NCBI GenBank assembly: GCA_028284905.1
Contig: JANQQU010000054.1
Span: 1-45,216, forward strand
DNA: 45,216 nt
Source: Calditrichia bacterium
GTDB lineage: Bacteria; Calditrichota; Calditrichia; RBG-13-44-9; J075
Reading direction: 5' to 3'
Positions within the stretch are counted from its first letter, which is position 1. Each line of letters opens with the position of its first letter. The translations under genes were made by a program, and so were the position numbers. The notes under the pieces were generated by a model. The model was not told where the DNA came from. It saw nothing but the letters and a program-made list of their open reading frames with translations, and searched no databases. Positions 28,009 to 41,854 of the stretch are shown piece by piece.

Positions 28009-28347
28009 TTAGCCTCCAAGTTCTCCAATTCCTGCTTCTCGCGTATCCAGGATTGGAAAAAGTGCGGAAAAGCCGGCAATATCAAACATGGTTTTAATTG
28101 ATTGCTGCATACCGGTTAAAACGATTTTTCCCTTTGCCATCTGCACTTTCTTAGCTGCCATTAAAAACACCCTTAAACCAGCACTGCTGATGTAATCCAA
28201 TTTGCTACAATCGATAAGTAGCTGATGGCCCCCTTCATCAATGATTGGCATAATTTGTTCTTCCAACGCTTTCGACGTTGCAGCATCTACCCGTCCAACA
28301 ATGTTTGCAATGGTAATACCATTTTGTTCTTCACGAATAACTTCCAT
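28009..28347 (-). CDS. STAS-domain anti-sigma factor antagonist (SpoIIAA/RsbV-like)
   Basis: I choose the ATG at 28347, preceded by gaggag, over a GTG at 28356; this gives 112 residues. The fold is shown by ITIANIVGRVDAATSKALEE, LLIDCSKLDYISSAGLRVFLMAAKK and TMFDIAGFSALFPIL. Serine 55 in DYISSAGLR is the candidate phosphorylation site for the upstream kinase; by alignment it replaces the DSSGL/DSTGL serine of SpoIIAA/RsbV. It is 24 bp downstream of the RsbW-like kinase and was probably co-transcribed, so the two form the core of a partner-switching module. A sigma factor targeted by it is not adjacent in the expected place. Confidence 0.93.
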   Translation of the reverse strand: MEVIREEQNGITIANIVGRVDAATSKALEEQIMPIIDEGGHQLLIDCSKLDYISSAGLRVFLMAAKKVQMAKGKIVLTGMQQSIKTMFDIAGFSALFPILDTREAGIGELGG

Positions 28348-28370
28348 TTTTATCACTCCTCATATTCTGG

Positions 28371-28790
28371 TTAAACTATATTTTTTCGCATAGTCAGGAT
28401 ATTGCGATCATTTTCCCGTTTATAAGAAAGGCCATCCATTAGCGTTTTTGCAAAGTGAACCCCCAGTCCTCCAATTCCTTTTTCCTCCAACGGGGTAGAA
28501 GTATCAACTTCCTTATTATCCAACGGGTTAAAAGCGATGCCATCATCTTCCACTTCCCCAATAAATGTATCTTGCTCGACAGCCAGGCGAACAATAATTT
28601 CATGTTCGCCTTCATCTTCATATCCATAGGAAATTACATTGGTAATTATTTCATCCAACACCAGGTTTAGTGGATAAAGCATTTCAGACGAAACGCCATT
28701 CTTCTGGCAAAAATCATCGACAATATGGCTGAGTCTCTCAATCTCAGTTAAGTCATTTTTTAAAGTGACGGACATTTGACTGTCAGACAT
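28371..28790 (-). CDS. RsbW-like anti-sigma factor serine kinase (HATPase_c_2)
   Basis: A 139-residue GHKL-type ATPase. The N-box reads LVLDEIITNVISYGY (Glu 47, Asn 51), the G1 box EDDGIAFNP (Asp 82 and 83) and the G2 box KGIGGLGVHF. Members phosphorylate a STAS antagonist and sequester a sigma factor. A strong aaggaga lies upstream of the ATG. The STAS partner follows immediately. The sensor ending in a SpoIIE phosphatase (36523-40890) is a candidate for the phosphatase that reverses this kinase, an inference from class and proximity. Confidence 0.93.
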   Translation of the reverse strand: MSDSQMSVTLKNDLTEIERLSHIVDDFCQKNGVSSEMLYPLNLVLDEIITNVISYGYEDEGEHEIIVRLAVEQDTFIGEVEDDGIAFNPLDNKEVDTSTPLEEKGIGGLGVHFAKTLMDGLSYKRENDRNILTMRKNIV

Positions 28791-28890: not shown

Positions 28891-29901
28891 CTAATTTTCG
28901 GCAAGCATTTTTAGTTGCCATAAATCCTGACTTTTTGTGCTTAAGAATGGTGAAATTGTTAATTTACCGGTTCGCCCGATGCTTTTTTCCAGGTATTCCA
29001 GCTCATCAAGCATGGGGAGAATTGTTGGATCCGGCGGCATATCGAATCCGGCTTCTTTCATCATCATAATTCCCTTGGCACGGATCGATAATTCCAAATG
29101 CACCCGCATGTAACAAATGATATCGAAGACAACTTCCGGTGGATATGTATCTTTTAATGATGCCAGGTAAATGCCGATTTTAGAACTGCTGATTTTATCA
29201 GAACTGAGTATGTCGAGCAACTCCTGATCAGAATCAAAACCGACATCGAGCCAGTTACGGGTGGATTTCTCACTTTGTTGAAAAACGAAGAGGATAATTG
29301 TTGGCAGTACAATTAATAAAATCAAAGTCATCAGCAGCGGCGGCAGAAAAAAATGATTGAAAAATGCGTGAATGATCATTGCAGTTGCCAACCCTGGAAA
29401 AAAGGATAAGAAATGAGTAGAGTTGCGCTGATCTACATCACCCTTTGCAATAATGGCAAATATCGCCGTTGTGCCGCCATGCATAATCGCTGTGCCGAAT
29501 CCACGGATAATCCAGAGCAACAGGCTTGCCTCGGAAATTACCTGCAGATAGTAAATGTTTTCTACAACGGCAAAACCAGCCCCTACTGCAAAGCCATGAA
29601 TCGCGCCATCCACCCGAAAGCCGATTCTGTTGGAACGAATCAAGTAATAGATGAACAATCCTTTGAAGAACTCTTCGATCAGGGGCGCATCATATCGGGA
29701 GTACATGTCCAAATCGATGCCTATTGGCCCCAGGAAAAACAAATTGATGCCAAAGCAGATCAATGCCACCAACCCACCAACGGCGATCGATACCAGGATC
29801 ATTTGAAATTTGATCAACTTAAAGCTATCAAATATCTTCAGAACCAGCAGGAATAAGAGAACCGGCACCAGGCTTAAAAATATTTGAAGGATTTCCTGCA
29901 T
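28891..29901 (-). CDS. PrsW-family intramembrane metalloprotease
   Basis: I choose the ATG at 29901 (336 residues), with ggag six bases upstream; the frame extends to 29979, but the extra DNA contains a REP-like palindrome. Eight or so membrane helices surround the motifs EEFFKG (Glu 76 and 77), FAVVENIYY (Glu 114), MHGGTTAIFA (His 141) and HAFFNHFF (His 178 and 183), the conserved EExxK, ENxxY and His motifs of the PrsW/CAAX-protease clan. In Bacillus, PrsW performs site-1 cleavage of an anti-sigma factor. A soluble C-terminal region of about 130 residues follows the last helix and is not typical of minimal PrsW proteins. It is upstream of the RsbW/STAS pair on the same strand. Confidence 0.88.
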   Translation of the reverse strand: MQEILQIFLSLVPVLLFLLVLKIFDSFKLIKFQMILVSIAVGGLVALICFGINLFFLGPIGIDLDMYSRYDAPLIEEFFKGLFIYYLIRSNRIGFRVDGAIHGFAVGAGFAVVENIYYLQVISEASLLLWIIRGFGTAIMHGGTTAIFAIIAKGDVDQRNSTHFLSFFPGLATAMIIHAFFNHFFLPPLLMTLILLIVLPTIILFVFQQSEKSTRNWLDVGFDSDQELLDILSSDKISSSKIGIYLASLKDTYPPEVVFDIICYMRVHLELSIRAKGIMMMKEAGFDMPPDPTILPMLDELEYLEKSIGRTGKLTISPFLSTKSQDLWQLKMLAEN

Positions 29902-29941
29902 ATCTGCTCCGCCCGACATGAATTCCGGGTCAATGGTCATA

Positions 29942-29956
29942 CGTCCCTGCGGGACG
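29942..29956. repeat. REP-like palindrome cgtccc-tgc-gggacg
   Basis: A 6-bp perfect stem with the 3-nt loop tgc, between the metallopeptidase and PrsW genes. It resembles catccc-gca-gggatg at 34474 and gtccc-tggc-gggac at 35080. Confidence 0.5.
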
Positions 29957-29998
29957 ATTGGGGTGTCCCGTGGATTCATCCATGGACGTAAGTTGTTT

Positions 29999-32926
29999 TT
30001 ATAACAGTTTTAGGGATACCATAAATTCTTTGCTGGGCCGAAAACCATCGCGAAATGCGGCGGCGTAGCCGAAGGATAAATATGAGTTCAACGCTGAGAA
30101 TACCACCAGGTTAAAATCCAGTTGTGCGCCGAGGTTTGCGGCTTCGAGACGGTTTACTTCACTATCCAGATTGGTGACGATTCCTCCTCCGAACAACGCC
30201 AACCGGGCCCAACGGGTATAAAACCCCGGCAACCCTAAACGCCGGAAACGCAATGGTGGTAAAGTCCATTCCAGCATCGATTTTGCGAAGTTGGTACCAC
30301 CAATCTCATTAATCTCAAGTCCCGGGAAACTTTCATAATGACGATATTGCAAATAATCCCGATGATCTACCCAATTGTTGCCAAATCCCCCAAAGAAGAA
30401 GTTCGCGAAGGGATTGTCCCGGTCGCCGCTGGCAATACCAGCGGCACTGCGTAGCCAAAGTGAGGAGTTTGAGAATAATTGCACCCCGAGACTGAGATTA
30501 CTGGAGATATGTGGATAGATCTTTCTATTGATAAAGCTATTCTCCGTTTTCAGTTGCCACTCGACTCCATGGGTGTGTTCCAGAGTGCCCAGCGGTTTCA
30601 CCATTGATTCGGCGGAGAATTCTCCATTGAGATAAATAGCCTCGGAAAAAGTTGCGGCGACATCCTGGTAGTAGGGTAGTTCATCCAACCCGCCAAAACC
30701 GGCGGTTTCAATCGCATAACTCATTGAGCGGGAGTGATTACTGGAGCGTTGAAAATCCAGCGTTTTTGCATATTTCAATGAGAGGCCATAGCCTTTCCGG
30801 CTTTTTCTTGTCGGGCCAAAAAAGTCGTAAAAATCGGCTTTGTTATACCAGCCCTTTACTTGCCAGTTCCAATAGCGGAAGTCGGCAGCAAAATGCAAGC
30901 GTTCATCCGCGGGCAGGTCTGCATCTGGTGAGTAGGAAGCGGAAATTTTCAGATCACTCAGCATCACCCGGTCGCTAAAATGAAGGCGTAATCCTACCGC
31001 AGGGGAATCCTTGTATTTCTCGACAATAGGATAACCGGAAACGAAACTGAGATTGTTAATCACATCGTAGGTGCCGGATTCACCATTTACGGAGTCGAGA
31101 TTCACCACTGAAGGTGGCGGCGCTATCCATTCTTTTAATACCGGATGATTGGCAATCATTTCATTGCCGAGGAAATTAATCGCATTAACGTTATTTAACG
31201 CTTTATTCGGAATCATTACCGGCTGTAATCCCTGGCCGGTATAGCGCATGGCGATGAGGGAATCATCCGAAACCGGCGTCGGACGAAAAAGCCCGGTTTC
31301 GGTGTTGCTGATGATAAAGATATCGTTCAACAGCATATCATATTTGTAGATATTGGAAACCCCGGAATAATAGGATGAACCGTATAAATAGCGTCCGTCC
31401 GCAGAAAACTGGAAGTTCGCCGGGGAGCTGTTTTCAAAATCGAATATAACCGTCGAGGTGGTATCTTTCTGCAATAATTTCTCTGTATCCATGCGGATCA
31501 GCTTTTCCCGTCCCACTGGATTGGAATACGCACCGGTCAGCCATTTTCCGTCGGGTGAAATGTCGATGTCGTATAATTCATAGCCATAATCGTAAGTAAA
31601 AACCTGGTTCCATTCCTCGTAGGGATAGGGAATGCGCACCAGGGTTTTTAGCCCAAGCTCATGGCGGGTGCCCCACAATGAGCTGTCCGCACGATTATAG
31701 GCCAGATCGCCAACGCGGGCATCCCGGATCAGTTCGCGAGATTTCTTGTTCTCGATATCCACGGCCATCAGATCGCGGAAGCCGGAGTTATCGGTAGTAT
31801 AAAAAAGCGTGTTATCGCCATTGAAAGCCAGTGAAGTAACGTAATAAAGGCCGGCACCAGGCACTTCGCAGATTTTTTCGATGCTGCCATCAGCGATATC
31901 GACGGCACCAATATGTGGCGTTTCCCCAAGATAATTGATGCCGACATATAATTTCCGCGTCTCCGGATGATAGAAGCCACGAGATGCCGAGCCAAGCGGC
32001 CGCTCTGTCAATTCTTTATAAGGAGAAGCCGGAAAAACCCGTAGGGAATCAAGATTAGACCGCTGAAAACTTTGTTCCCATTCAATCCATTCTGACCAGG
32101 CATCATCAAGGGAGATATTGTAAACTTTTTTGAATTGTGCGGAGAAAGACGCCTTACTGCCTTCCCGTCTCGCCAGCCAATCCATAAATTTTTCCGGGCC
32201 GTAAGTGTTCCCGAGATAAGCCATGAAGCGGCTGCCGTAGAGATAGGAATTAGCACCAACCTGGAAGTCGCTGGTGGTGCCTTCCGATTCTAAACCAACA
32301 ACATCGTAGAAATAAATGCTGTCCCGCACCATAGTTCGGAAAACCATCTCGTAGTATGCGGAGAAGGTGCGGCCAAGCCCACCACTCATCCAGGTTTCCA
32401 AAAACACTGCGCTCCCTTCGTAATACCAGCGTGGAGCGTACCGCCGCGGAGTGGCAAGATAGGTGTAGATTGCGGAAAGCGGCTGCTCCGCATCAGGGTA
32501 AACCTTTCCACCGAATATCGAACGAAAAAGATTATCCCGGCCGGCCGCCTGGTCCATAGTAACAACGTGAGCCACTTCGTGATTCATCACCCAATTCACC
32601 CGGTCATTCCCATAGACTGTTTCATAGGTGCGACTGAAAGGTGCCATGTAAATTGAAATAAAATTACGGGGAATAGCCTCGGCACCGCCATTGCCATAAT
32701 CTTCAAAATCGACCATTAAAATGGTAACTTTCCCCTCAGGGGTATAACGAAAAAGTTGTTGGTGATAAGTCCAGGCGTTTTCGAAAGAGCGAGCCATATG
32801 CGGAACCAGATATTTGGCAGCCACGCTGGGATAGATCAAGCGCATATTATCTGTTTCATAGGACTGAAACTGGGCATTGAGAATAGTCGCGAAAAAAATA
32901 GTTAGAATTAGATATTTTTTTTTCAA
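29999..32926 (-). CDS. Secreted/outer-membrane metallopeptidase-like protein: gluzincin domain, propeller and beta-barrel
   Basis: A 975-residue protein starting at TTG 32926; this start gives a good signal peptide (KKKYLILTIFFATILNAQ) and has aaggg upstream. The first 300 residues carry HEVAHVV (116-122) and, 50 residues on, WYYEGSAVFLE (Glu 170/177), the arrangement of gluzincin (peptidase MA-type) zinc proteases. The middle (about 320-560) consists of TolB/WD40-like propeller units such as ISPDGKWLTGAYSNP, SADGRYLYGSSYYSG. The C-terminal third contains amphipathic beta-strands (LSLKYAKTL, WLRSAAGIASGDR, LNSYLSFGYAAAFRDGF), ending in a hydrophobic residue like an outer-membrane barrel. It is thus probably a surface-displayed protease. 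Substrate unknown; it precedes the PrsW and RsbW/STAS genes. Confidence 0.85.
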   Translation of the reverse strand: MKKKYLILTIFFATILNAQFQSYETDNMRLIYPSVAAKYLVPHMARSFENAWTYHQQLFRYTPEGKVTILMVDFEDYGNGGAEAIPRNFISIYMAPFSRTYETVYGNDRVNWVMNHEVAHVVTMDQAAGRDNLFRSIFGGKVYPDAEQPLSAIYTYLATPRRYAPRWYYEGSAVFLETWMSGGLGRTFSAYYEMVFRTMVRDSIYFYDVVGLESEGTTSDFQVGANSYLYGSRFMAYLGNTYGPEKFMDWLARREGSKASFSAQFKKVYNISLDDAWSEWIEWEQSFQRSNLDSLRVFPASPYKELTERPLGSASRGFYHPETRKLYVGINYLGETPHIGAVDIADGSIEKICEVPGAGLYYVTSLAFNGDNTLFYTTDNSGFRDLMAVDIENKKSRELIRDARVGDLAYNRADSSLWGTRHELGLKTLVRIPYPYEEWNQVFTYDYGYELYDIDISPDGKWLTGAYSNPVGREKLIRMDTEKLLQKDTTSTVIFDFENSSPANFQFSADGRYLYGSSYYSGVSNIYKYDMLLNDIFIISNTETGLFRPTPVSDDSLIAMRYTGQGLQPVMIPNKALNNVNAINFLGNEMIANHPVLKEWIAPPPSVVNLDSVNGESGTYDVINNLSFVSGYPIVEKYKDSPAVGLRLHFSDRVMLSDLKISASYSPDADLPADERLHFAADFRYWNWQVKGWYNKADFYDFFGPTRKSRKGYGLSLKYAKTLDFQRSSNHSRSMSYAIETAGFGGLDELPYYQDVAATFSEAIYLNGEFSAESMVKPLGTLEHTHGVEWQLKTENSFINRKIYPHISSNLSLGVQLFSNSSLWLRSAAGIASGDRDNPFANFFFGGFGNNWVDHRDYLQYRHYESFPGLEINEIGGTNFAKSMLEWTLPPLRFRRLGLPGFYTRWARLALFGGGIVTNLDSEVNRLEAANLGAQLDFNLVVFSALNSYLSFGYAAAFRDGFRPSKEFMVSLKLL

Positions 32927-33317: not shown

Positions 33318-34169
33318 CTATTTGACTGCGCGAAACTCGGGACTTGCCAATGCTGCGCGAAATTCAGGGCTCGCAAGGGCAGCTCGAAATTCAGGACTTG
33401 CTAAAGCTGCGCGAAACTCAGGGCTAGCTAAAGCCGCACGAAACTCGGGGCTAGCTAAAGCCGCGCGAAATTCCGGACTCGCTAATGCTGCACGGAACTC
33501 GGGGCTTGCAAGGGCAGCTCGAAATTCAGGACTCGCTAATGCTGCGCGAAACTCGGGACTTGCCAATGCTGCGCGAAATTCAGGGCTCGCTAAAGCTGCT
33601 TTTAATTCCGCACTTGCTAAGGCAGCTTGCGCTTCCGGGCTTGCCAATGCTGCACGAAATTCCGGACTCGCCATAGCAGCACTTGCTTCCGGACTTGCCA
33701 GTGCTGCGCGAAATTCCGGATTCGCTAACACTGCACGAAATTCCGGACCTGCTAACACTGCACGAAACTCAGGATTGGATAAGGCAGCGCGAAATTCCGG
33801 ATTCGCCAGAGCTGCGCGAAATTCCGGATTCGATAGTGCCGCACGGAATTCCGGGCTAGCTAAAGCTGCGCGAAATTCCGGATTTGCCAGTACGGCACGA
33901 AATTCCGGACTCGCTAACACAGCGCCAACTTGTTCATCATTAATTAGTTTCTTAACCTGATCGCTCTGCATTAACTTGTGAACCACAGACTCGCCAAGCT
34001 GAATATCTTTTGTATTCATTTGTGCAGACTTATAACGGTCGGCTTTCTTAACGCCACCAATGGTGCCACCGGTATTATCGCCACCCGGCATAAATCCTGA
34101 GACCATAAATCCTAAAATCAAACCAGCAACCAAACCGCCAATTCCCCAAAACAATTTCTGATTATCCAT
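33318..34169 (-). CDS. Membrane-anchored protein of 22 nine-residue repeats (SPEFRAALA)
   Basis: A 283-residue protein. Residues 7-27 form one membrane helix (FWGIGGLVAGLILGFMVSGFM), followed by a Gly/Thr linker and a helical stretch (residues about 55-86). Residues 87-283 are 22 consecutive nine-residue units, consensus [S/N]PEFRAALA; the last is cut to SPEFRAVK. Units 1-12 vary (NPEFRAALS, GPEFRAVLA, SPEASAAMA, SPEAQAALA, SAELKAALA), while the last 10 are nearly identical. The preceding stretch MQSDQVKKL / INDEQVGAV reads like degenerate earlier units in the same register. A strong gaggag precedes the ATG. I do not recognise a family; the units recall the short NPE-containing helices of STI1-type domains, but that is only a resemblance. 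It probably projects a helical rod or solenoid from the membrane. Confidence 0.85.
   Translation of the reverse strand: MDNQKLFWGIGGLVAGLILGFMVSGFMPGGDNTGGTIGGVKKADRYKSAQMNTKDIQLGESVVHKLMQSDQVKKLINDEQVGAVLASPEFRAVLANPEFRAALASPEFRAALSNPEFRAALANPEFRAALSNPEFRAVLAGPEFRAVLANPEFRAALASPEASAAMASPEFRAALASPEAQAALASAELKAALASPEFRAALASPEFRAALASPEFRAALASPEFRAALASPEFRAALASPEFRAALASPEFRAALASPEFRAALASPEFRAALASPEFRAVK
33321..33911 (-). repeat. 27-bp tandem repeat array within the repeat-protein gene
   Basis: Twenty-two units of 27 bp on the minus strand encode the nine-residue repeats. The core gcgcgaaattc... is conserved, while third-codon positions differ between units (gaaactcggg, gaaattcagg, gaaattccgg), so the array is not a fresh simple expansion except possibly at its 3' end (33327-33600). 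The opposite strand stays open over the whole array as a by-product. Confidence 0.9.
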
Positions 34170-34488: not shown

Positions 34489-34569
34489 ACTGCTCAAAAC
34501 TCAGAGATTCATTCCTGAGCAGTGATGGCAAACCCCAAGTATCATACACAAACCCAGGAGGAACGATCA

Positions 34570-35022
34570 ATGGCGCACTCATACATCAGCACCTACGTCC
34601 ACTACGTCTTCAGCACAAAGTATCGGCGAAAGATCATCACACCAGCACTGGAAAATCGTCTCTATCCATATATGGCTGGGATAGCACGGAAGAATAAAAT
34701 GAGGGCGCTGGCAATTAATGGCATCGAAGATCACGTCCACCTGCTTATCGCTTTGCCTTCAACGATCACTATAGGACGGGGCATTCAATTGATAAAAGGG
34801 ACTTCTTCCCGTTGGGTTTGTCAAACTTTTCCGGAGCATAGTTGGTTTCAGTGGCAGATCGGGTATGGTGCGTTCAGCGTCAGCTATTATCATATCGATA
34901 AAATCATCGCTTATATTCGCCGGCAGAAAATTCATCATCGGCGGGTGGGTTTTAAGCGAGAATATGTTTCGCTTTTGGAGCGGCATGGAATGGATTATGA
35001 TGAAAAGTATGTTTGGGGTTGA
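34570..35022 (+). CDS. tnpA: IS200/IS605-type Y1 (HUH) transposase, probably RAYT
   Basis: I choose the ATG at 34570, with aggagg eight bases upstream, which gives 150 residues, the usual size for the family. Motifs: STKYRR near the N-terminus, NGIEDHVHLLIAL with the metal-binding HVH (55-57), GTSSRWVCQTFP, FQWQIGYGAFSVSYYHIDKIIAYIRRQKIHH with the catalytic tyrosine 115. Single-strand transposases of this class cut next to hairpins. It stands alone (no TnpB) and is flanked by two near-identical palindromes with a tgaa loop, the hallmark of a REP-associated tyrosine transposase. The domain looks intact. Confidence 0.93.
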   Translation: MAHSYISTYVHYVFSTKYRRKIITPALENRLYPYMAGIARKNKMRALAINGIEDHVHLLIALPSTITIGRGIQLIKGTSSRWVCQTFPEHSWFQWQIGYGAFSVSYYHIDKIIAYIRRQKIHHRRVGFKREYVSLLERHGMDYDEKYVWG

Positions 35023-35109: not shown

Positions 35110-35868
35110 CTATTTTTCGGGGAGGGTTTGTTCGAGTAGAATAGTGTTTTGTTGGTATATTTGGAGTATCAATTTGAATGAAGAATTTGTGCTGTTTCTG
35201 AAATAGATCGTGCATTGTTGCTCGCCGAAATGAGTTATCTCTATATTATCGTCTTTCAAAGCGATGTTTGAATTTTTCGTACTTTCGGAAAAAATGATGT
35301 TGCTGACTGGAAAATCGTTTTCCGGATAAATGATTTTCAGTTTATGTTTTTCACGGGATTGCAGTGAAAGCCCGAGAGAAAATACCTTATCCGACCTCAT
35401 CAATGTAACTTCACCGGCAAGATCTGTCAGTTGGATCGGGAGGACTTCGACTGCTTCGAATGCAGTCGATCTGCTCTCTGCACCGATCGTGCCACGCATT
35501 CGCTGGTCTGCCACCTTGAATCCCCCCTGAAACAGCGCAAAAAGAAGCAGACCTGCAGCTAAACCGGTGGCAAAAGTGCCGACCTGCTGCCAGCTAATTT
35601 GAATCGATTTGAAAGGTAAGGGATTATGTTTCTCTGCTTGTTTATATCGTGCAGGATCAATCGCTGCTATTACTTTATTTTCCAGATCAGCGGGGGCTTC
35701 TTCTTCGGGTAATTGTTCTAAGATTTGAGAAGTAGTGTTTAATTTATCAAACAAAGATTGGGCTTCGGGATTGCGGGAGAGATAATCGTGCAGCTCGGCA
35801 CTCTCTTCGAGAGTATTCCTGCCGTCGATCTCCTGATGCATCAGGTTAAGGTACTTCTCCGCGCTCAT
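35110..35868 (-). CDS. Anti-sigma factor, single-pass membrane protein without a zinc motif
   Basis: I choose the ATG at 35868 (252 residues) over a TTG at 35874. The N-terminal region (about residues 1-60; YLNLMHQEIDGRNTLEESAELHDYLSRNPEAQSLFDKL) follows the anti-sigma domain pattern, but the HxxxCxxC zinc ligands are absent (HDYLSRNPEAQ). One membrane helix (about 95-113; VGTFATGLAAGLLLFALF) leads to an extracytoplasmic beta-rich domain. It overlaps the ECF sigma gene by 23 bp and is co-transcribed with it, which supports the pairing. It would hold the sigma factor at the membrane; the signal sensed by the outer domain is unknown. Confidence 0.85.
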   Translation of the reverse strand: MSAEKYLNLMHQEIDGRNTLEESAELHDYLSRNPEAQSLFDKLNTTSQILEQLPEEEAPADLENKVIAAIDPARYKQAEKHNPLPFKSIQISWQQVGTFATGLAAGLLLFALFQGGFKVADQRMRGTIGAESRSTAFEAVEVLPIQLTDLAGEVTLMRSDKVFSLGLSLQSREKHKLKIIYPENDFPVSNIIFSESTKNSNIALKDDNIEITHFGEQQCTIYFRNSTNSSFKLILQIYQQNTILLEQTLPEK

Positions 35869-36415
35869 TTTCAATCATCCCTTGTGCAATTAATTGATCT
35901 TTTAGTAGCTGCCGGGCACTGAACAATCGGGATTTTACGGTTTTCACCGGAATTCCCAATGCCCCGCTCATTTCTTCATATGAAAAACCGGCAAAGTATT
36001 TCAGCACAATCGCCGTTCGGTAATCAGTATTTAATGTCATCAAAGCAGTTTTTACCTGCTCGCTGGTCTCTGATATTTGCAGACCGTTCTCCAACTTACC
36101 TTCCGGTGCCTGATAACCGGCTGCAGCATCCAGCGGACGGTGACGATTGCTCCGCTTCAACAAATTGATCGACTCATTCACCGCCATGGTGTAGACCCAG
36201 TTAAAGACATTGCGTTTGTAATCAACGGTATCGAGTTTCTCGTACATTTTTACAAACACTGACTGGGAAATATCCTCAGCAGTTTCATAACTTCCGGTCA
36301 TCCGTAAGGCAACATTAAATACCGGTTTTTTATAACGTCCGACCAGAATGGCAAATGCCGCCGTATCGCCCTGGAGGCACTGCCAGACTAACATCTGATC
36401 ATTCTGTTCTTCCAT
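35846..36415 (-). CDS. ECF RNA polymerase sigma factor
   Basis: I choose the ATG at 36415 (189 residues) over a TTG at 36427. Region 2 is shown by FAILVGRYKKPVFNVALRMTGSYETAEDISQSVFVKMYEKL and FNWVYTMAVNESINLLKR; region 4 by LNTDYRTAIVLKYFAGFSYEEMSGALGIPVKTVKSRLFSARQLLKDQL. The length and pattern are those of a minimal ECF sigma factor. The anti-sigma gene overlaps its end. The upstream sensor/phosphatase gene ends 108 bp earlier on the same strand with two palindromes between, so the two may be partly independent. Confidence 0.93.
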   Translation of the reverse strand: MEEQNDQMLVWQCLQGDTAAFAILVGRYKKPVFNVALRMTGSYETAEDISQSVFVKMYEKLDTVDYKRNVFNWVYTMAVNESINLLKRSNRHRPLDAAAGYQAPEGKLENGLQISETSEQVKTALMTLNTDYRTAIVLKYFAGFSYEEMSGALGIPVKTVKSRLFSARQLLKDQLIAQGMIENERGEVP

Positions 36416-36463
36416 TATACAACCCAATTTTGTAAATGTTGGTGAAAATTATTTTTCCGCCAC

Positions 36464-36522: not shown

Positions 36523-39500
36523 TTACTTTGCTTTTACTACTACGAAAGTGACGTCGTCGTCGTTGGGGCGGCCGTTGGCCCATTTGTCGCCGGCTTTTAC
36601 CAGTTCATCGATTATAGTTTGGGAAGGTTTTTCCGCAATTTTGGTAAACAACGCTTTCGTTTCATCGTAGCCGAACATTTCTTCTTTGTCGTTAAACAAT
36701 TCCGCAAAGCCGTCGGAGGCAAGAAGGATGGTGTCGCCGAGATGTAATTCATATTCTTCCTGTTGATAAGGAAAGCCGGGAAATGCGCCCAGGGGCATCG
36801 CTTTAATAAAAATTTCTTCGACTGTTTTTGTTCTTGCCCGGTAAAGGTAGGCGGGCGGAATACCGGCGGTAGTTATACTGAATTTCCGGTTTTTAATGCG
36901 CAACAACTGCAACCCCATCAATAAATTACCGGCAAAAATTTGGTCGAAAGTAGCATTACAATCGTCAAAGAAAGAGAGGGTTTCAGACTTAGCCACATTA
37001 GAGAAGAAGAGGCTTTTCATAGTAGTAACCACCATGCCGGAATTAATACCATGCCCGGTCGCATCACCAAGTGCTACGATTAACGATCCATCTTCCGCGT
37101 TGCTGAAATCATAATAGTCCCCACCGACCTCGGTAGCGGTTTTCATGTAGGCGGCGATATCGTAATCAGGATTGTCGGGCATCTCTTTCGGCAGCATGGA
37201 AAGCTGTAAATCACGTGCCCCTTCCAATTCAGCAGTTTGCCGTTCGTTTTCCGCTTCGAGCAGTTCCCGCTTGGCCTGTTCTTCAGCAAGGAGTTGTTTC
37301 TGGGTAGACCCCAGTTTTTGATAGGCATCGGCATTATCCAGAGCAATAGCGGTGTAGGTCGCCAGGTTACGGAGAATGTTCACATGATAATCCGTGTAGG
37401 CGTTCTTTTTGAAACTTTGACTGGTAATTACCCCGAGCTTCCGGTCTTTTAACACCAGCGGCAGATAAAGTAATGAGAACGCATCTTCGCCTTCAACAGC
37501 GGTTAGATTGGCTTTCAAATATTTTTTATAATCCTTACCCCAATCATTACTATAGATCTCTTTCTGGTTTTCAAAACACCACACTGCCGGGCGGTTTTCA
37601 TCACTTAATGTGTTAGTATATGGTGCAAGAGTTGCTCCTTTTTCCTTCGTCGCCGGAAATTCCAGAATTTGTTTTTCTTCATTATAAACCCCGATACCGA
37701 AGACGGTCGCATCTATCAGCGTATTCACATTTTCGTAAGCGGTATCGATAATTGCTTTAATGGACAAGTTGGCAGTAATATCCCGCCCAATCCGGCTAAG
37801 TAATTCTACATTTTCGAAAGAAGTTTGCAAATCCTTGTGGGCATCATCAACCTTGCGATAAGCCTCTCCGTTATCGAGGGTAATCGCTGCAAATGTGGCC
37901 AGGTTACGGAGAATATCAACGTGGTTCTCTGAGTAAGCGTGCCTGCGGAAACTCTGAACTGTGATGACACCAAAGATTTTATCCTGATGGATCAGGGGAA
38001 GATAAATCACCGAAAGTGAATCTTCCCCTTCGACAGCCGGGAGGTCAGCGGTGAGATATTGTTTGTACTCATTGTCCCAATCATTGATAATCATTTCTTT
38101 TCGATTATTGAAACTCCAGACTGCCGGGCGATCATTATCTTTTAAAGGCATTGATGTCGGAGGCAGAGATTTTCCTTTTTCTTTGACCGCCGGGAAATCC
38201 AGCTGATCTTTTTCTGCATTGTGGATCGCCACACCGAAAATTTCTGCATCCATCAGTGAATTAATATTTTCATAAATGGTATCGCCAATATGAATAGCCA
38301 GCGAATCTGCGGTCATATTTTTGATACTGATCCGGCTGATCTGCTCAATGTTCTCTTTCTGTGCCCGGGTTTCCTCGGCCTGCCGGCGCACTTCCGCGGT
38401 TCTTTCTGCGATTGTTTGTTCCAATGCCCGATTGCGACTTTCCAACTGGCGGGAACGCACTTTGCCACTCCCAAAGATCAACCCAACAAAAACAATAAAA
38501 TAGGCGGCATAGGCCCACCAGGAGCGGTACCATGGTGGACGGATCGTAAATGCATAAATCTCTGTCTGGCCGGGGTGCTGATAGGTGTTTCGTGCACGTA
38601 CGTGGAAGCGATAGCTACCCTCCGGAATGTTTGTGTAGTCTTTCCGGGTATCCAAACTCCAGGCTGACCAACGTTTATCGAACCCCTCTAACATGGTTTG
38701 ATATTCATTTTGTCCGGCAGCTTCATAACTGGTCGCAGCATATTCGAAGCGAAGGGCATTATTTTCATAGTTTAGGCGAGCGCCATTATTTTTAGTCATA
38801 TCCGAGCTGGCACCGCCATAAATCAATGAATCTCCACCTACTATTACCTGACGAATTACTGTCGGATAATCCGCGAAGTAGTTCTTATCAACGTTATTAT
38901 CATAGCGAATCAAACCTTCCGCACCACCAAACCAAATGACGTTTTCATCATCAGGGTCCGGATAAATTGTGGTATTCCCAAAATCCTTGAAGCGTAATAG
39001 CGGCGTTTTATCGAGGTGGTATGTGCCATCAGGCTGCAAACGAGCGACCGCTTTTTCTAAGCCAAAGTCAATCCAAACATTACCCGAGGCATCTTCAATA
39101 ACACTATGAACACCCAGTTTTGAACCGCTAAAAGGAATTTGGTTAAGTAATGTATCGGGATAAAAATAGTTTCTTGCTTCATTATACCGATAAGCGCCTT
39201 CGCTGGTACCAAAAATGGTTTGACCAAAAGCAGCGAAGACTGTAATACTTCCATCATGTGGGAAGCCATGGCGCGAGCCAAATTTTTCCACCTTTGACGA
39301 TTGTAAAGAATGTTCTTTAAAGGTAACACGAATGGTGCCTTTGCTTTCGGTACCAAGCCATAGAATGCCCGGCTCAGGCGCAACCATAGTCAATATGCTT
39401 TCATTTATTTCTTCAGCTATTCGCCCTTCATCAACCCAGGTTCCCGTTTGAGGTTTCCAGCGCATAGTAGTTAGTCCATCATGTAAGCCGATGTAGAAAA

Positions 39501-40890
39501 GATTCGGATCTTCCTGAGAACGCACCATCGCCTGTGGAATCCATGACAATGATCCAGGGTTTTTACGGATTGCCTTTGCGACCGTACCTTCAATTTGAAC
39601 TAATGCCACTTGTCTGCCAACAAGTAAAATATCTTCGCTGGAAAGCATGGAAAAAGACTGTGGATTCCCCGGGGGTAACCCCTCCACAGATTTGAAGGCG
39701 GATGAAAGCGGATCCAGATAAAACACCCCGTTACCGGTTGCGACATACAAAACGCCCTTGTGACGCACCATATCCAGTATCCCCCCGATCAATCCACTCT
39801 TTACGTCGAAGACAGACAAAGGTGAGGGGTATTCTACCTGAACAATAGCATTTTCCGGTGCCAGCCATAACAGTCCCCGGTTGTCGACAAATACCGCTAG
39901 AATGGCATTACTCGATAGTCCGGTATCTCGATTAATCACTTGTTGCGTTTTGCCTTGCCGATCCATAATCGCCAGCCCACCATCAAGGGTCGCAAAGGCA
40001 AAACTTCCATCGGTTAGGCGATCACCTTTATAGATAATATTTGTCTTTAGGAAGTCATCCAGTTCAGTTTGAAAGGGCTTTATCGATGCTCCATCGTAAA
40101 TGAAGAGTCCTGTTGAGAAGGCGCCAATCAATAGTGTCTCAATTTCTCCTGAACTATCATTATATTCAAATGGCAGCATTACTTGCACACGATCATTCGC
40201 AAATTGCTCTCCCCCCTCCAACAAGTGGAGAGAGTCATCTATCATTTTCATTAAACCGACACCATCCAGGCGAACAAATAGTGTATCCTTGAGATAGAAA
40301 GAGTATGCAAACAAATTCTGCGACTCCCATACTTTCGCCTCCCAGGTATCACCTGCTGGGCTCAGTCGAAACAGGTGTTCGAAAGTCGTAAAATAAACCC
40401 CATCAGGCGTAACATTCGTACTAAAAACATAAGTAAACTCTCGGCTTTCAGGCGGAATGAAATCCATTAACGAAACATAGCGCTTCTGCCCGGTAGAATC
40501 TGCGCCCAAGTAACCAAACTCACCGGTGCATCCCAGGTAAACCCGACCGTTTTCATCGGCATCCAGCGACCGTACCAGTGACTTGTTCGCATTTTCGATC
40601 ATCCGCCAGGAAACACCATCATATTCCAACAATCCGGAAGTGTTCGCGACATACATCATCCCGCGTTGATCCTGAACAAAATCCCAGCTTTCTGAGTGTC
40701 CGCCATATTGTTTGGAGTTGAAAGCCGTCAGAAATGGTTTGCCGATTTCCCGATGGTTAGTATTCGTCGATTGTGCCTGCAATGGTCGCAGCATGAAGAG
40801 GAGCAATAACAGGGTAAATAGAGAATACCAATACCCTTTATGCGAAGGCGCATACTGTTTATTCATGAGGAATTTTCCGATATTGTTCAT
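36523..40890 (-). CDS. Sensor protein: two-component-type propeller, Y_Y_Y, two GAF domains and SpoIIE/RsbU phosphatase
   Basis: A 1,455-residue protein. After an N-terminal membrane signal (LFTLLLLLFMLRPLQAQ) come propeller repeats (about 50-735), with units such as DQRGMMYVANTSGLLEYDGVSW and DNRGLLWLAPENA. Next come a Y_Y_Y domain (about 740-790; YTNIPEGSYRFHVRARN), a membrane helix (about 797-820), a coiled coil (to about 860), two GAF domains (about 870-1000 and 1040-1180), a second coiled coil and a PP2C/SpoIIE domain (about 1233-1455; EVGGDYYDFSNAEDGSLIVA, GDATGHGINSGMV, DDVTFVVV). The ligand side is that of Bacteroidota hybrid sensors, but the histidine kinase is replaced by a serine phosphatase. 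ATG 40890 is used; ATG 40866 is possible. Likely role: dephosphorylate a STAS antagonist in response to an extracellular signal. Confidence 0.92.
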   Translation of the reverse strand: MNNIGKFLMNKQYAPSHKGYWYSLFTLLLLLFMLRPLQAQSTNTNHREIGKPFLTAFNSKQYGGHSESWDFVQDQRGMMYVANTSGLLEYDGVSWRMIENANKSLVRSLDADENGRVYLGCTGEFGYLGADSTGQKRYVSLMDFIPPESREFTYVFSTNVTPDGVYFTTFEHLFRLSPAGDTWEAKVWESQNLFAYSFYLKDTLFVRLDGVGLMKMIDDSLHLLEGGEQFANDRVQVMLPFEYNDSSGEIETLLIGAFSTGLFIYDGASIKPFQTELDDFLKTNIIYKGDRLTDGSFAFATLDGGLAIMDRQGKTQQVINRDTGLSSNAILAVFVDNRGLLWLAPENAIVQVEYPSPLSVFDVKSGLIGGILDMVRHKGVLYVATGNGVFYLDPLSSAFKSVEGLPPGNPQSFSMLSSEDILLVGRQVALVQIEGTVAKAIRKNPGSLSWIPQAMVRSQEDPNLFYIGLHDGLTTMRWKPQTGTWVDEGRIAEEINESILTMVAPEPGILWLGTESKGTIRVTFKEHSLQSSKVEKFGSRHGFPHDGSITVFAAFGQTIFGTSEGAYRYNEARNYFYPDTLLNQIPFSGSKLGVHSVIEDASGNVWIDFGLEKAVARLQPDGTYHLDKTPLLRFKDFGNTTIYPDPDDENVIWFGGAEGLIRYDNNVDKNYFADYPTVIRQVIVGGDSLIYGGASSDMTKNNGARLNYENNALRFEYAATSYEAAGQNEYQTMLEGFDKRWSAWSLDTRKDYTNIPEGSYRFHVRARNTYQHPGQTEIYAFTIRPPWYRSWWAYAAYFIVFVGLIFGSGKVRSRQLESRNRALEQTIAERTAEVRRQAEETRAQKENIEQISRISIKNMTADSLAIHIGDTIYENINSLMDAEIFGVAIHNAEKDQLDFPAVKEKGKSLPPTSMPLKDNDRPAVWSFNNRKEMIINDWDNEYKQYLTADLPAVEGEDSLSVIYLPLIHQDKIFGVITVQSFRRHAYSENHVDILRNLATFAAITLDNGEAYRKVDDAHKDLQTSFENVELLSRIGRDITANLSIKAIIDTAYENVNTLIDATVFGIGVYNEEKQILEFPATKEKGATLAPYTNTLSDENRPAVWCFENQKEIYSNDWGKDYKKYLKANLTAVEGEDAFSLLYLPLVLKDRKLGVITSQSFKKNAYTDYHVNILRNLATYTAIALDNADAYQKLGSTQKQLLAEEQAKRELLEAENERQTAELEGARDLQLSMLPKEMPDNPDYDIAAYMKTATEVGGDYYDFSNAEDGSLIVALGDATGHGINSGMVVTTMKSLFFSNVAKSETLSFFDDCNATFDQIFAGNLLMGLQLLRIKNRKFSITTAGIPPAYLYRARTKTVEEIFIKAMPLGAFPGFPYQQEEYELHLGDTILLASDGFAELFNDKEEMFGYDETKALFTKIAEKPSQTIIDELVKAGDKWANGRPNDDDVTFVVVKAK

Positions 40891-41026
40891 TTAAAAAAGT
40901 GTTTATAGCATCATTGCAGAATAAATATTCCTTATTAAAGAAGGAAAAAATTCTTCATTCTAACAATGTGCCCGCCCCAATTAACATACACTTGATAATA
41001 CTGAAAAAGACGTTATCATACATAGC

Positions 41027-41131
41027 ACTCAGGTTGCATTCTTAGGTACTCAGGTTGCATTCTCAGATACTCAGGTTGTATTCTCAGATACTCAGGTTGT
41101 ATTCTTACCAACGGAGGTTGCATTTTGCTGC
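41027..41131. repeat. Five 21-bp direct repeats upstream of the sensor-phosphatase gene
   Basis: Units start at 41027, 41048, 41069, 41090 and 41111, exactly 21 bp apart, with the core actcaggttg(c/t)attct. The first four are close to identical; the fifth (acggaggttgcatttt) is degenerate and, with part of the fourth, lies inside the end of the AraC-type gene. The spacing equals two helical turns, as expected for tandem regulator-binding sites. Confidence 0.85.
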
Positions 41132-41463
41132 AGAACAAAAGTTTTTGGCAGGCAGCCGAATCGCCGCTTGAAGCACTTGGTAAAATAACTGGGATTTTTA
41201 AATCCTACCCGGTAGGCGATCTCACCAATGGAAAGCGGTTCTTCCCGCAGTAAATCAGCGGCGCGCTCGAGACGAATCGTCGAAATAAACTGTCCACAAT
41301 TTTGCTGTGTTAGGGCAGAAAGGCGACGGTGTAGCTGTGTGCGACTCATGCCGACCTCATCGGCCAGTGCCTTCACTGAAAATCCCGGGGCACTGATATT
41401 CGCCATAACGATAGCAGCAACCCGATCTAGAAAAATGCGATCTCTAGGAGTTAAAGCCGTCAT
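41092..41463 (-). CDS. Stand-alone AraC-type helix-turn-helix regulator (hybrid-sensor output-domain type)
   Basis: I choose the ATG at 41463 (123 residues) over a TTG at 41496. Both helix-turn-helix units are complete: FSVKALADEVGMSRTQLHRRLSALTQQNCGQFISTIRLERAADLLR and LSIGEIAYRVGFKNPSYFTKCFKRRFGCLPKTF. The sequence resembles the C-terminal DNA-binding domain of Bacteroidota hybrid two-component sensors, but there is no receiver or ligand-binding domain attached. It reads on the same strand as, and 201 bp upstream of, the sensor gene, whose propeller/Y_Y_Y part is of that same hybrid class. The stop lies inside a 21-bp repeat array. DNA binding is near certain; the signal input is not evident. 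Confidence 0.88.
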   Translation of the reverse strand: MTALTPRDRIFLDRVAAIVMANISAPGFSVKALADEVGMSRTQLHRRLSALTQQNCGQFISTIRLERAADLLREEPLSIGEIAYRVGFKNPSYFTKCFKRRFGCLPKTFVLQQNATSVGKNTT

Positions 41464-41496
41464 ATCTGCAATAAAAATATTAACCGGATGGCGCAA

Positions 41497-41854
41497 TGTT
41501 CACCCTTCCTTTTATTTGGGAAGTTCAGGTAGAACGGTCCTGTTTGATAATAATTGTTCAAAAATAAGATATGTAAAACGAATAGCAGGCGCCTAGCACT
41601 CAGGTTGCAAATGATGGTACAGAGGTTGTATTTTGGTAAAAACGAAACCGGTAAAGCCGGGCTTAGTATGGAAAAGTCGTTGATCGTTTTTTGTTGTTAG
41701 ATAATCGAGGAAGTAACAGGTAAGTAATTCACATTGATTCCATGTGAGAAATCTTTAATAATATTTAACTATCCAGAGTATCCCCTGATATTCACGAGCT
41801 AAACGGCCAAGGGGTATCTTTAACGCATCTTGCCTAGTTCACACGCCAGCACTT
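41497..41854. other. 358-bp intergenic region upstream of the AraC-type gene
   Basis: No gene is seen. It contains two 21-bp repeats at 41598-41639 and otherwise A/T-rich sequence that should hold the AraC-type gene promoter and the 3' end of the YdeI-like gene. I see no clear terminator. Confidence 0.5.
41598..41639. repeat. Two 21-bp direct repeats upstream of the AraC-type gene
   Basis: actcaggttgcaaat (from 41598) and acagaggttgtatttt (from 41619) are 21 bp apart and share the core caggttg(c/t)a with the array at 41027-41131, in the same orientation. Confidence 0.75.

Follow-up and report, generated by a model that had tools for sequence, protein, structure and literature searches.

In Bacillus subtilis, the SigW-RsiW-PrsW system operates by regulated proteolysis of the anti-sigma factor. 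The hybrid two-component systems (HTCS) of Bacteroidota carry propeller, Y_Y_Y, kinase, receiver and AraC HTH parts in one polypeptide. Every HTCS operator predicted by Ravcheev et al. (PMC3878776) was a direct repeat, with spacings averaging 21 bp, and the family was called unique to Bacteroidetes in 2013 (PMC3878776). For some species of Campylobacterota, pathways combining ECF, cAMP and STAS-kinase systems were proposed in 2022 (PMC9239204). The window analysed here is a stretch of 45,216 nucleotides from a Calditrichia bacterium (contig JANQQU010000054.1). Its genome, which is probably KSB1/Calditrichota-like and not that of a Bacteroidota member, contained about 35–40 hybrid-sensor HTHs, despite the reported restriction of the HTCS family to Bacteroidetes. 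On our best reading of the sequence, the window encodes an HTCS-type sensor rewired to act through a phosphatase, so that an ECF sigma factor, of the stress type, comes under partner-switching control.

The sensor phosphatase and its relatives

The sensor phosphatase (36523..40890, minus strand) was a protein of 1455 aa whose reading frame was open throughout, and it was described by Pfam domains and motifs. It consisted of a signal peptide, an HTCS-type propeller, a Y_Y_Y domain (residues 722–781), a transmembrane helix (TM, about 790–806), a coiled coil, two GAF stretches and a SpoIIE/PPM domain (1267–1454). The original prediction had described a propeller and Y_Y_Y part joined to two GAF domains and a SpoIIE phosphatase, and this was borne out by matches that all exceeded the Pfam cut-offs: Reg_prop (31.1 bits; cut-off 20.4), Y_Y_Y (39.7 bits; 26.6), GAF_2 (94.1 bits; 28.6) and SpoIIE (106.7 bits; 25). 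The phosphatase motifs GGDYYD (1256), GDATGHG (1275), SDGF (1392) and DDDVTF (1444) were intact, as was the SpoIIE switch-helix motif LQLSMLP (1228). In alignments, the metal-binding residues D1258, D1276, D1393 and D1446 were invariant. A structure-search profile (A1) made from the sensor and seven relatives matched the solved HTCS sensor domains 3v9f, 3va6, 3ott and 4a2l, with E-values down to 3.6e-40, and its C-terminus matched the PPM phosphatases 3ke6, 6k4e, 5mqh, 3t91 and 5ucg. The protein terminated in SpoIIE. Pfam gave no match to HisKA or HATPase in the polypeptide, nor to a receiver or an AraC HTH.

To gather relatives, 40 genomes belonging to the class were searched and 84,980 species were scanned. 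Forty-one proteins, drawn from the window's class, KSB1, Calditrichota, Ignavibacteria and Bacteroidota, were scanned for domains; SpoIIE was matched in all 41, Reg_prop in 40, Y_Y_Y in 39, PAS in five and GAF in one, the window protein. The propeller-Y_Y_Y-SpoIIE architecture is widespread, and the GAF pair is unique to the window protein among the 41. The original prediction was not aware of a described system of this design; the design is not unique, as the architecture recurred, without the GAF pair, in the scanned proteins. Among the papers searched, none linked SpoIIE to Reg_prop, to Y_Y_Y or to a two-component regulator propeller.

Partner-switch genes recurred next to these proteins. 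In genome G021, a tandem run of seven to eight propeller-SpoIIE genes led into genes for an RsbW-like kinase, a STAS protein and another SpoIIE protein. An RsbW-STAS-SpoIIE trio or parts of it adjoined propeller-SpoIIE genes at loci L045, L046, L047, L126 and L171, and RsbW together with STAS did so at L031, L040, L045–L047, L126 and L171. This adjacency is evidence that proteins of the class signal by partner switching. With RsbW and STAS genes also present in the window cluster described below, the originally predicted partner-switching output appears likely.

Several further arrangements were observed. Tandem arrays of up to eight propeller-SpoIIE genes occurred at L040/L041 (G021:C3, about 233–261 kb), L126, L042 and L043, with one RsbW-STAS-SpoIIE trio accompanying the array in L040 and in L126. 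At L031:9764-11590 (C51:75766-77589 of the window's own genome), a sigma-54 AAA+ activator was fused to a C-terminal RsbW-type HATPase_c_2 kinase, and a fusion of the same layout was encoded at L215:3067-4941 (G003:C80). The two fusions shared 40% identity over their full length. Each had an adjoining STAS gene and was convergent with a propeller-Y_Y_Y-SpoIIE gene, a layout that suggests a sigma-54 activator under partner-switch control. In Acidobacteriota, loci L103, L105 and L154 encoded propeller-Y_Y_Y-GAF-GAF kinase proteins whose GAF domains matched those of the window sensor; the L105 protein had HisKA, HATPase and a receiver. A separate SpoIIE gene followed each of these kinase genes, and encoded a GAF-SpoIIE protein in L105 and L154.

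We tentatively propose, at somewhat less than even confidence, that HTCS-type sensors were re-plumbed from phosphorelay to partner switching in the window's lineage, giving a general propeller-SpoIIE class with at least three outputs. These would be RsbW-STAS-RsbU sets served by up to eight tandem receptors, the sigma-54 activator-RsbW-type kinase fusion, and, in the window, an ECF sigma factor gated by both partner switching and PrsW-dependent cleavage of the anti-sigma factor.

The ECF sigma factor cluster downstream of the sensor

The conserved partners of the sensor lay on its downstream side, opposite the HTH gene on which the original prediction had concentrated; that prediction had overlooked the sigma factor, anti-sigma, PrsW, RsbW and STAS genes there. 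An ECF sigma factor gene (35846..36427, minus strand) was located 95 nt downstream of the sensor gene on the same strand. Its best named NCBIfam match was SigW, with 112.5 bits, which is under the cut-off of that family. It was followed by the gene for a putative membrane anti-sigma factor (35110..35874, minus strand) with a helical N-terminus, a TM helix and a beta C-domain. A structure model of this protein built with five sequences had a mean pLDDT of 70, and a fold search with it returned unrelated beta-sandwiches only, so its identity is not settled by the model. What points to an anti-sigma factor is the layout of helices, TM and beta domain, together with weak matches to anti-sigma families of NCBIfam.

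An IS200-like transposase gene (Y1_Tnp; 34522..35022, plus strand) sat on the opposite strand within the cluster, between the anti-sigma gene and that of a membrane-anchored protein with 9-residue, ASPEFRAAL-type repeats (33318..34169, minus strand). The repeats of the latter were near-perfect; its homologues in other clusters kept the N-terminus, and their repeat sequences mostly differed. Next came a 975-aa outer-membrane protein (OMP; 29999..32926, minus strand) with a metallopeptidase-like N-terminus, a PD40 propeller and an outer-membrane barrel. Its HExxH...EGxAxFxE motif resembled that of metallopeptidases, and the protein was strongly conserved along with the ECF cluster. A profile match identified a PrsW-family intramembrane protease (28891..29979, minus strand). 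The last two genes encoded an RsbW/SpoIIAB-like serine kinase (HATPase_c_2; 28371..28790, minus strand) with intact ATP-binding motifs, and a STAS anti-anti-sigma protein (28009..28356, minus strand) with the conserved serine in YISSAGL. The repeat protein and the OMP were members of the conserved cluster.

All eight families (SpoIIE, RsbW, STAS, ECF, anti-sigma, repeat protein, OMP and PrsW) were present in the window, and the gene set was found again at five other loci, one of which was predicted beforehand from its ECF score. A paralogous locus on contig C25 of the same genome encoded GAF-SpoIIE, RsbW, STAS, ECF, anti-sigma, repeat protein and OMP. Elsewhere in the class, the nearest three ECF relatives (L190, L191 and L192; 152–164 bits) each belonged to the cluster. 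Six ECF relatives were set apart by score: all reached 124 bits or more, and in the class the next scored no higher than 93. Each of these six lay in a run with SpoIIE, RsbW and STAS, and neither these nor other cluster genes were present at the nine next-best ECF loci inspected. As a further test, an ECF profile was run over 29 genomes of other groups. One outlier was obtained, with 229 bits (next 152), at locus L209 of candidate division KSB1. When this locus was fetched on the strength of its ECF score, it held the full set in the order PrsW-RsbW-STAS-(REC-SpoIIE)-ECF-anti-sigma-repeat protein-OMP. The window's gene order is a circular permutation of the L209 order with the IS200-like insertion added; the uninterrupted order is not kept. 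The RsbW and STAS proteins of L209 (124 and 108 bits) were much nearer to those of the window than those of other clusters were. Full-length identity of the window proteins to L190 and L191 was 49% and 47% for the OMP, and identity was 46% and 41% for PrsW. The ECF sigma factor shared 38–47% identity with its relatives, and the anti-sigma factor 23–26% overall. Among the papers searched on ECF sigma factors, SpoIIE, STAS, HATPase, PrsW and anti-anti-sigma factors, none described the cluster.

The SpoIIE slot of the cluster was filled by GAF-SpoIIE in L180, L190 and L192 and by REC-SpoIIE in L209. When 47 SpoIIE domains were arranged in a tree, the four GAF-SpoIIE proteins from the clusters grouped together in a single clade (support 99/96), and the window SpoIIE was placed in a separate, propeller-rich clade (96/99). 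The window slot thus holds a SpoIIE of another lineage than the cluster's own, and, judged from these sequences, different input modules can occupy this place in the cluster.

We consider it probable that the sensor is the input phosphatase of this conserved cluster controlling the ECF sigma factor, with the lone HTH protein as a local regulator rather than the output. This proposal builds on the domains, the intact motifs, the conserved gene set and the repeats, and we infer all the biochemical steps, the RsbW target and the ligand. A ligand, perhaps an oligosaccharide by homology to HTCS sensors, would bind the periplasmic propeller, and the Y_Y_Y domain, the TM helix and coiled coil, and the GAF pair would relay the change to SpoIIE through the switch helix. 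SpoIIE would then remove the phosphate from the STAS protein; this dephosphorylation is predicted from the STAS and RsbW genes in its cluster. The STAS protein would capture RsbW, lifting the restraint of RsbW on its target. Most simply this target would be the neighbouring ECF sigma factor, which would be released. That RsbW binds a sigma factor with an anti-sigma factor of its own is a guess, and the weakest step of the chain. Cleavage of the anti-sigma factor via PrsW could provide a second gate, by analogy with Bacillus SigW-RsiW-PrsW.

The lone HTH gene and its repeats

Upstream of the sensor gene, on the same strand and 201 nt away, a reading frame of 134 aa (41092..41496, minus strand) encoded a lone HTCS-type AraC HTH (HTH_18/HTH_AraC), probably a local transcription regulator. 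It had a TTG start preceded by a good ribosome site, AAAGGAAGGG. The protein was hardly more than the HTH, and Pfam found no receiver, STAS or other signalling domain in it. Within its own genome it best matched the HTHs at the C-terminal ends of about 35 hybrid sensors (top identity 54%, on C25), and its top match among solved structures was 12aw, a hybrid two-component system protein (8.7e-15). Domain and structure matches therefore agreed with the original description of a standalone AraC HTH of the hybrid-sensor kind upstream of the sensor. No orthologue was found in 39 relatives. A class-wide search returned, besides the protein itself, longer proteins only, nearly all of hybrid-sensor size.

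Direct repeats of 21 bp, which the original prediction had also overlooked, were present on either side of the HTH gene. A repeat search detected five copies with the consensus ACTCAGGTTGYATTCTYAGRT (41027..41131, plus strand), a probable operator array that overlapped the 3' end of the HTH gene and lay upstream of the sensor gene. Two more, weaker copies spaced by 21 bp were found upstream of the HTH gene (41598..41639, plus strand); both were degenerate, and one scored no higher than several chance sites in the window. The self-match at an offset of 21 scored 38, against 10 for the 95% level of shuffled sequences. The array was also considered as a dispersed genomic repeat, and this was rejected: near-exact copies occurred at this locus only in the 8.55 Mb searched. 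Pairs with a 21-bp spacing and a TGTCGC core were found at two other lone-HTH loci of the genome. In a genome-wide search for such pairs, four of the five best matches fell within about 0.7 kb of HTH genes, and two of these four had not been used in defining the motif.

Since the HTH gene is flanked by repeats of the reported HTCS operator form, its product probably regulates both itself and the sensor gene, and the repeats are probably its operator array. We infer a detached HTCS DNA-binding domain that would bind the repeats before its own gene and the sensor gene and so set the level of both. By analogy, it may act like a MarA/SoxS-type regulator, having no sensing domain of its own.

Other lone HTHs were found in the same genome. 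At L077–L080 (contigs C45, C12, C60 and C89), a hybrid sensor was followed by a gap of 0.7–1 kb, a lone HTH and a protein of 1100–1460 aa. The gap contained 21–22-bp direct repeats at three of the four loci, and the large protein matched Peptidase_S74 at three of the four. Possibly, these loci form a family in which paired HTHs control surface proteins.

Alternative readings and comparison with known systems

The original prediction took the sensor and the lone HTH protein for two halves of one system, and the phosphatase might then control the HTH protein. The two genes are adjacent on one strand, 201 nt apart, and a regulatory link is suggested by the intervening repeats. A consistent pairing was to be sought beside the sensors of relatives. 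The set comprised 56 proteins that matched SpoIIE and were at least about 950 aa long, the window sensor included; for some the SpoIIE match is weak and a kinase is possible, and one locus appears twice (L038 and L118). For 38 of the 56 candidates (37 of 55 when the window is left aside), the fetched sequence extended by 1 kb or more on each side. A lone HTH, defined as a protein of less than 260 aa within the fetched neighbourhood, adjoined the window sensor alone; in the neighbourhoods checked for the other 55 candidates the pairing did not occur once. The absence of an HTH orthologue from the 39 relatives argues in the same direction, as does a 134-aa protein with so little beyond the HTH. 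Four other lone HTHs of the same genome (159–175 aa) each had a hybrid sensor on one side and a large protein on the other, the latter matching Peptidase_S74 in three of the four cases, and no SpoIIE gene was present there. Lone HTHs are thus a habit of this genome and not of the SpoIIE sensor. With the pairing seen here only, and similar lone HTHs occurring without a SpoIIE sensor, the idea of a system split in two was not upheld, and we regard it as very improbable. Most likely, the small HTH gene is a separate local regulator and not the missing half of a split protein.

The place of the sensor before the ECF gene might instead be accidental, and the sensor might signal to a different partner-switch pair, such as the SpoIIE-RsbW-STAS-SpoIIE set on C61. 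The genome had 20 SpoIIE and 21 STAS matches, and the window RsbW and STAS genes are 8 kb from the sensor, in a cluster interrupted by the IS200-like gene. Together with the unusual lineage of the window SpoIIE, which differs from that of the cluster, this means that the phosphatase might act on another of the 21 STAS-domain matches. However, other cluster loci also show SpoIIE directly before ECF or before RsbW-STAS-ECF, and the window has all the other cluster genes, so we consider an accidental placement unlikely. The IS200-like insertion between the anti-sigma and repeat-protein genes and the permuted order could also be signs of a decaying locus whose parts no longer work together. Every reading frame is open, however, the catalytic motifs are intact, and the permuted order occurs with the full set in L209 of a distant genome; we regard decay as very improbable. 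Input to the ECF cluster remains our preferred role for the sensor, and the locus is better framed as a novel form of partner switching, located at an ECF cluster, than as a pairing with the HTH gene.

If this is true, large glycan-type HTCS sensors are not tied to histidine kinases, and can also act through serine dephosphorylation to release a sigma factor. One conserved cluster would moreover join partner switching and intramembrane proteolysis on a single ECF sigma factor, as a double gate.

The window sensor shares its periplasmic propeller and Y_Y_Y domain with the HTCS of Bacteroidota (BT4663, BT4673; structures 3v9f, 3ott, 3va6 and 4a2l), and the lone HTH matches HTCS HTHs, for which 21-bp direct-repeat operators are reported (PMC3878776). 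Unlike HTCS, the window sensor has no HisKA, HATPase or receiver, its output is a PPM phosphatase, and the HTH is on a separate gene. The other propeller-Y_Y_Y-SpoIIE proteins share its architecture among the 41 scanned, but theirs is without GAF, in some cases with PAS, and in no case with a lone HTH neighbour. With the SpoIIE/RsbU-RsbW-RsbV systems of Bacillus SigB and SigF, the window has in common the PPM metal motifs and the switch helix (eLife 26111), as well as a kinase resembling RsbW and a STAS protein in which the conserved serine is kept. It differs from them in that the input is an HTCS propeller and the sigma factor is not of the SigB/SigF type but an ECF sigma factor with its own membrane anti-sigma factor and PrsW. 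An ECF sigma factor, a membrane anti-sigma factor and PrsW in one cluster recall SigW-RsiW-PrsW, to which the window cluster adds SpoIIE, RsbW and STAS.
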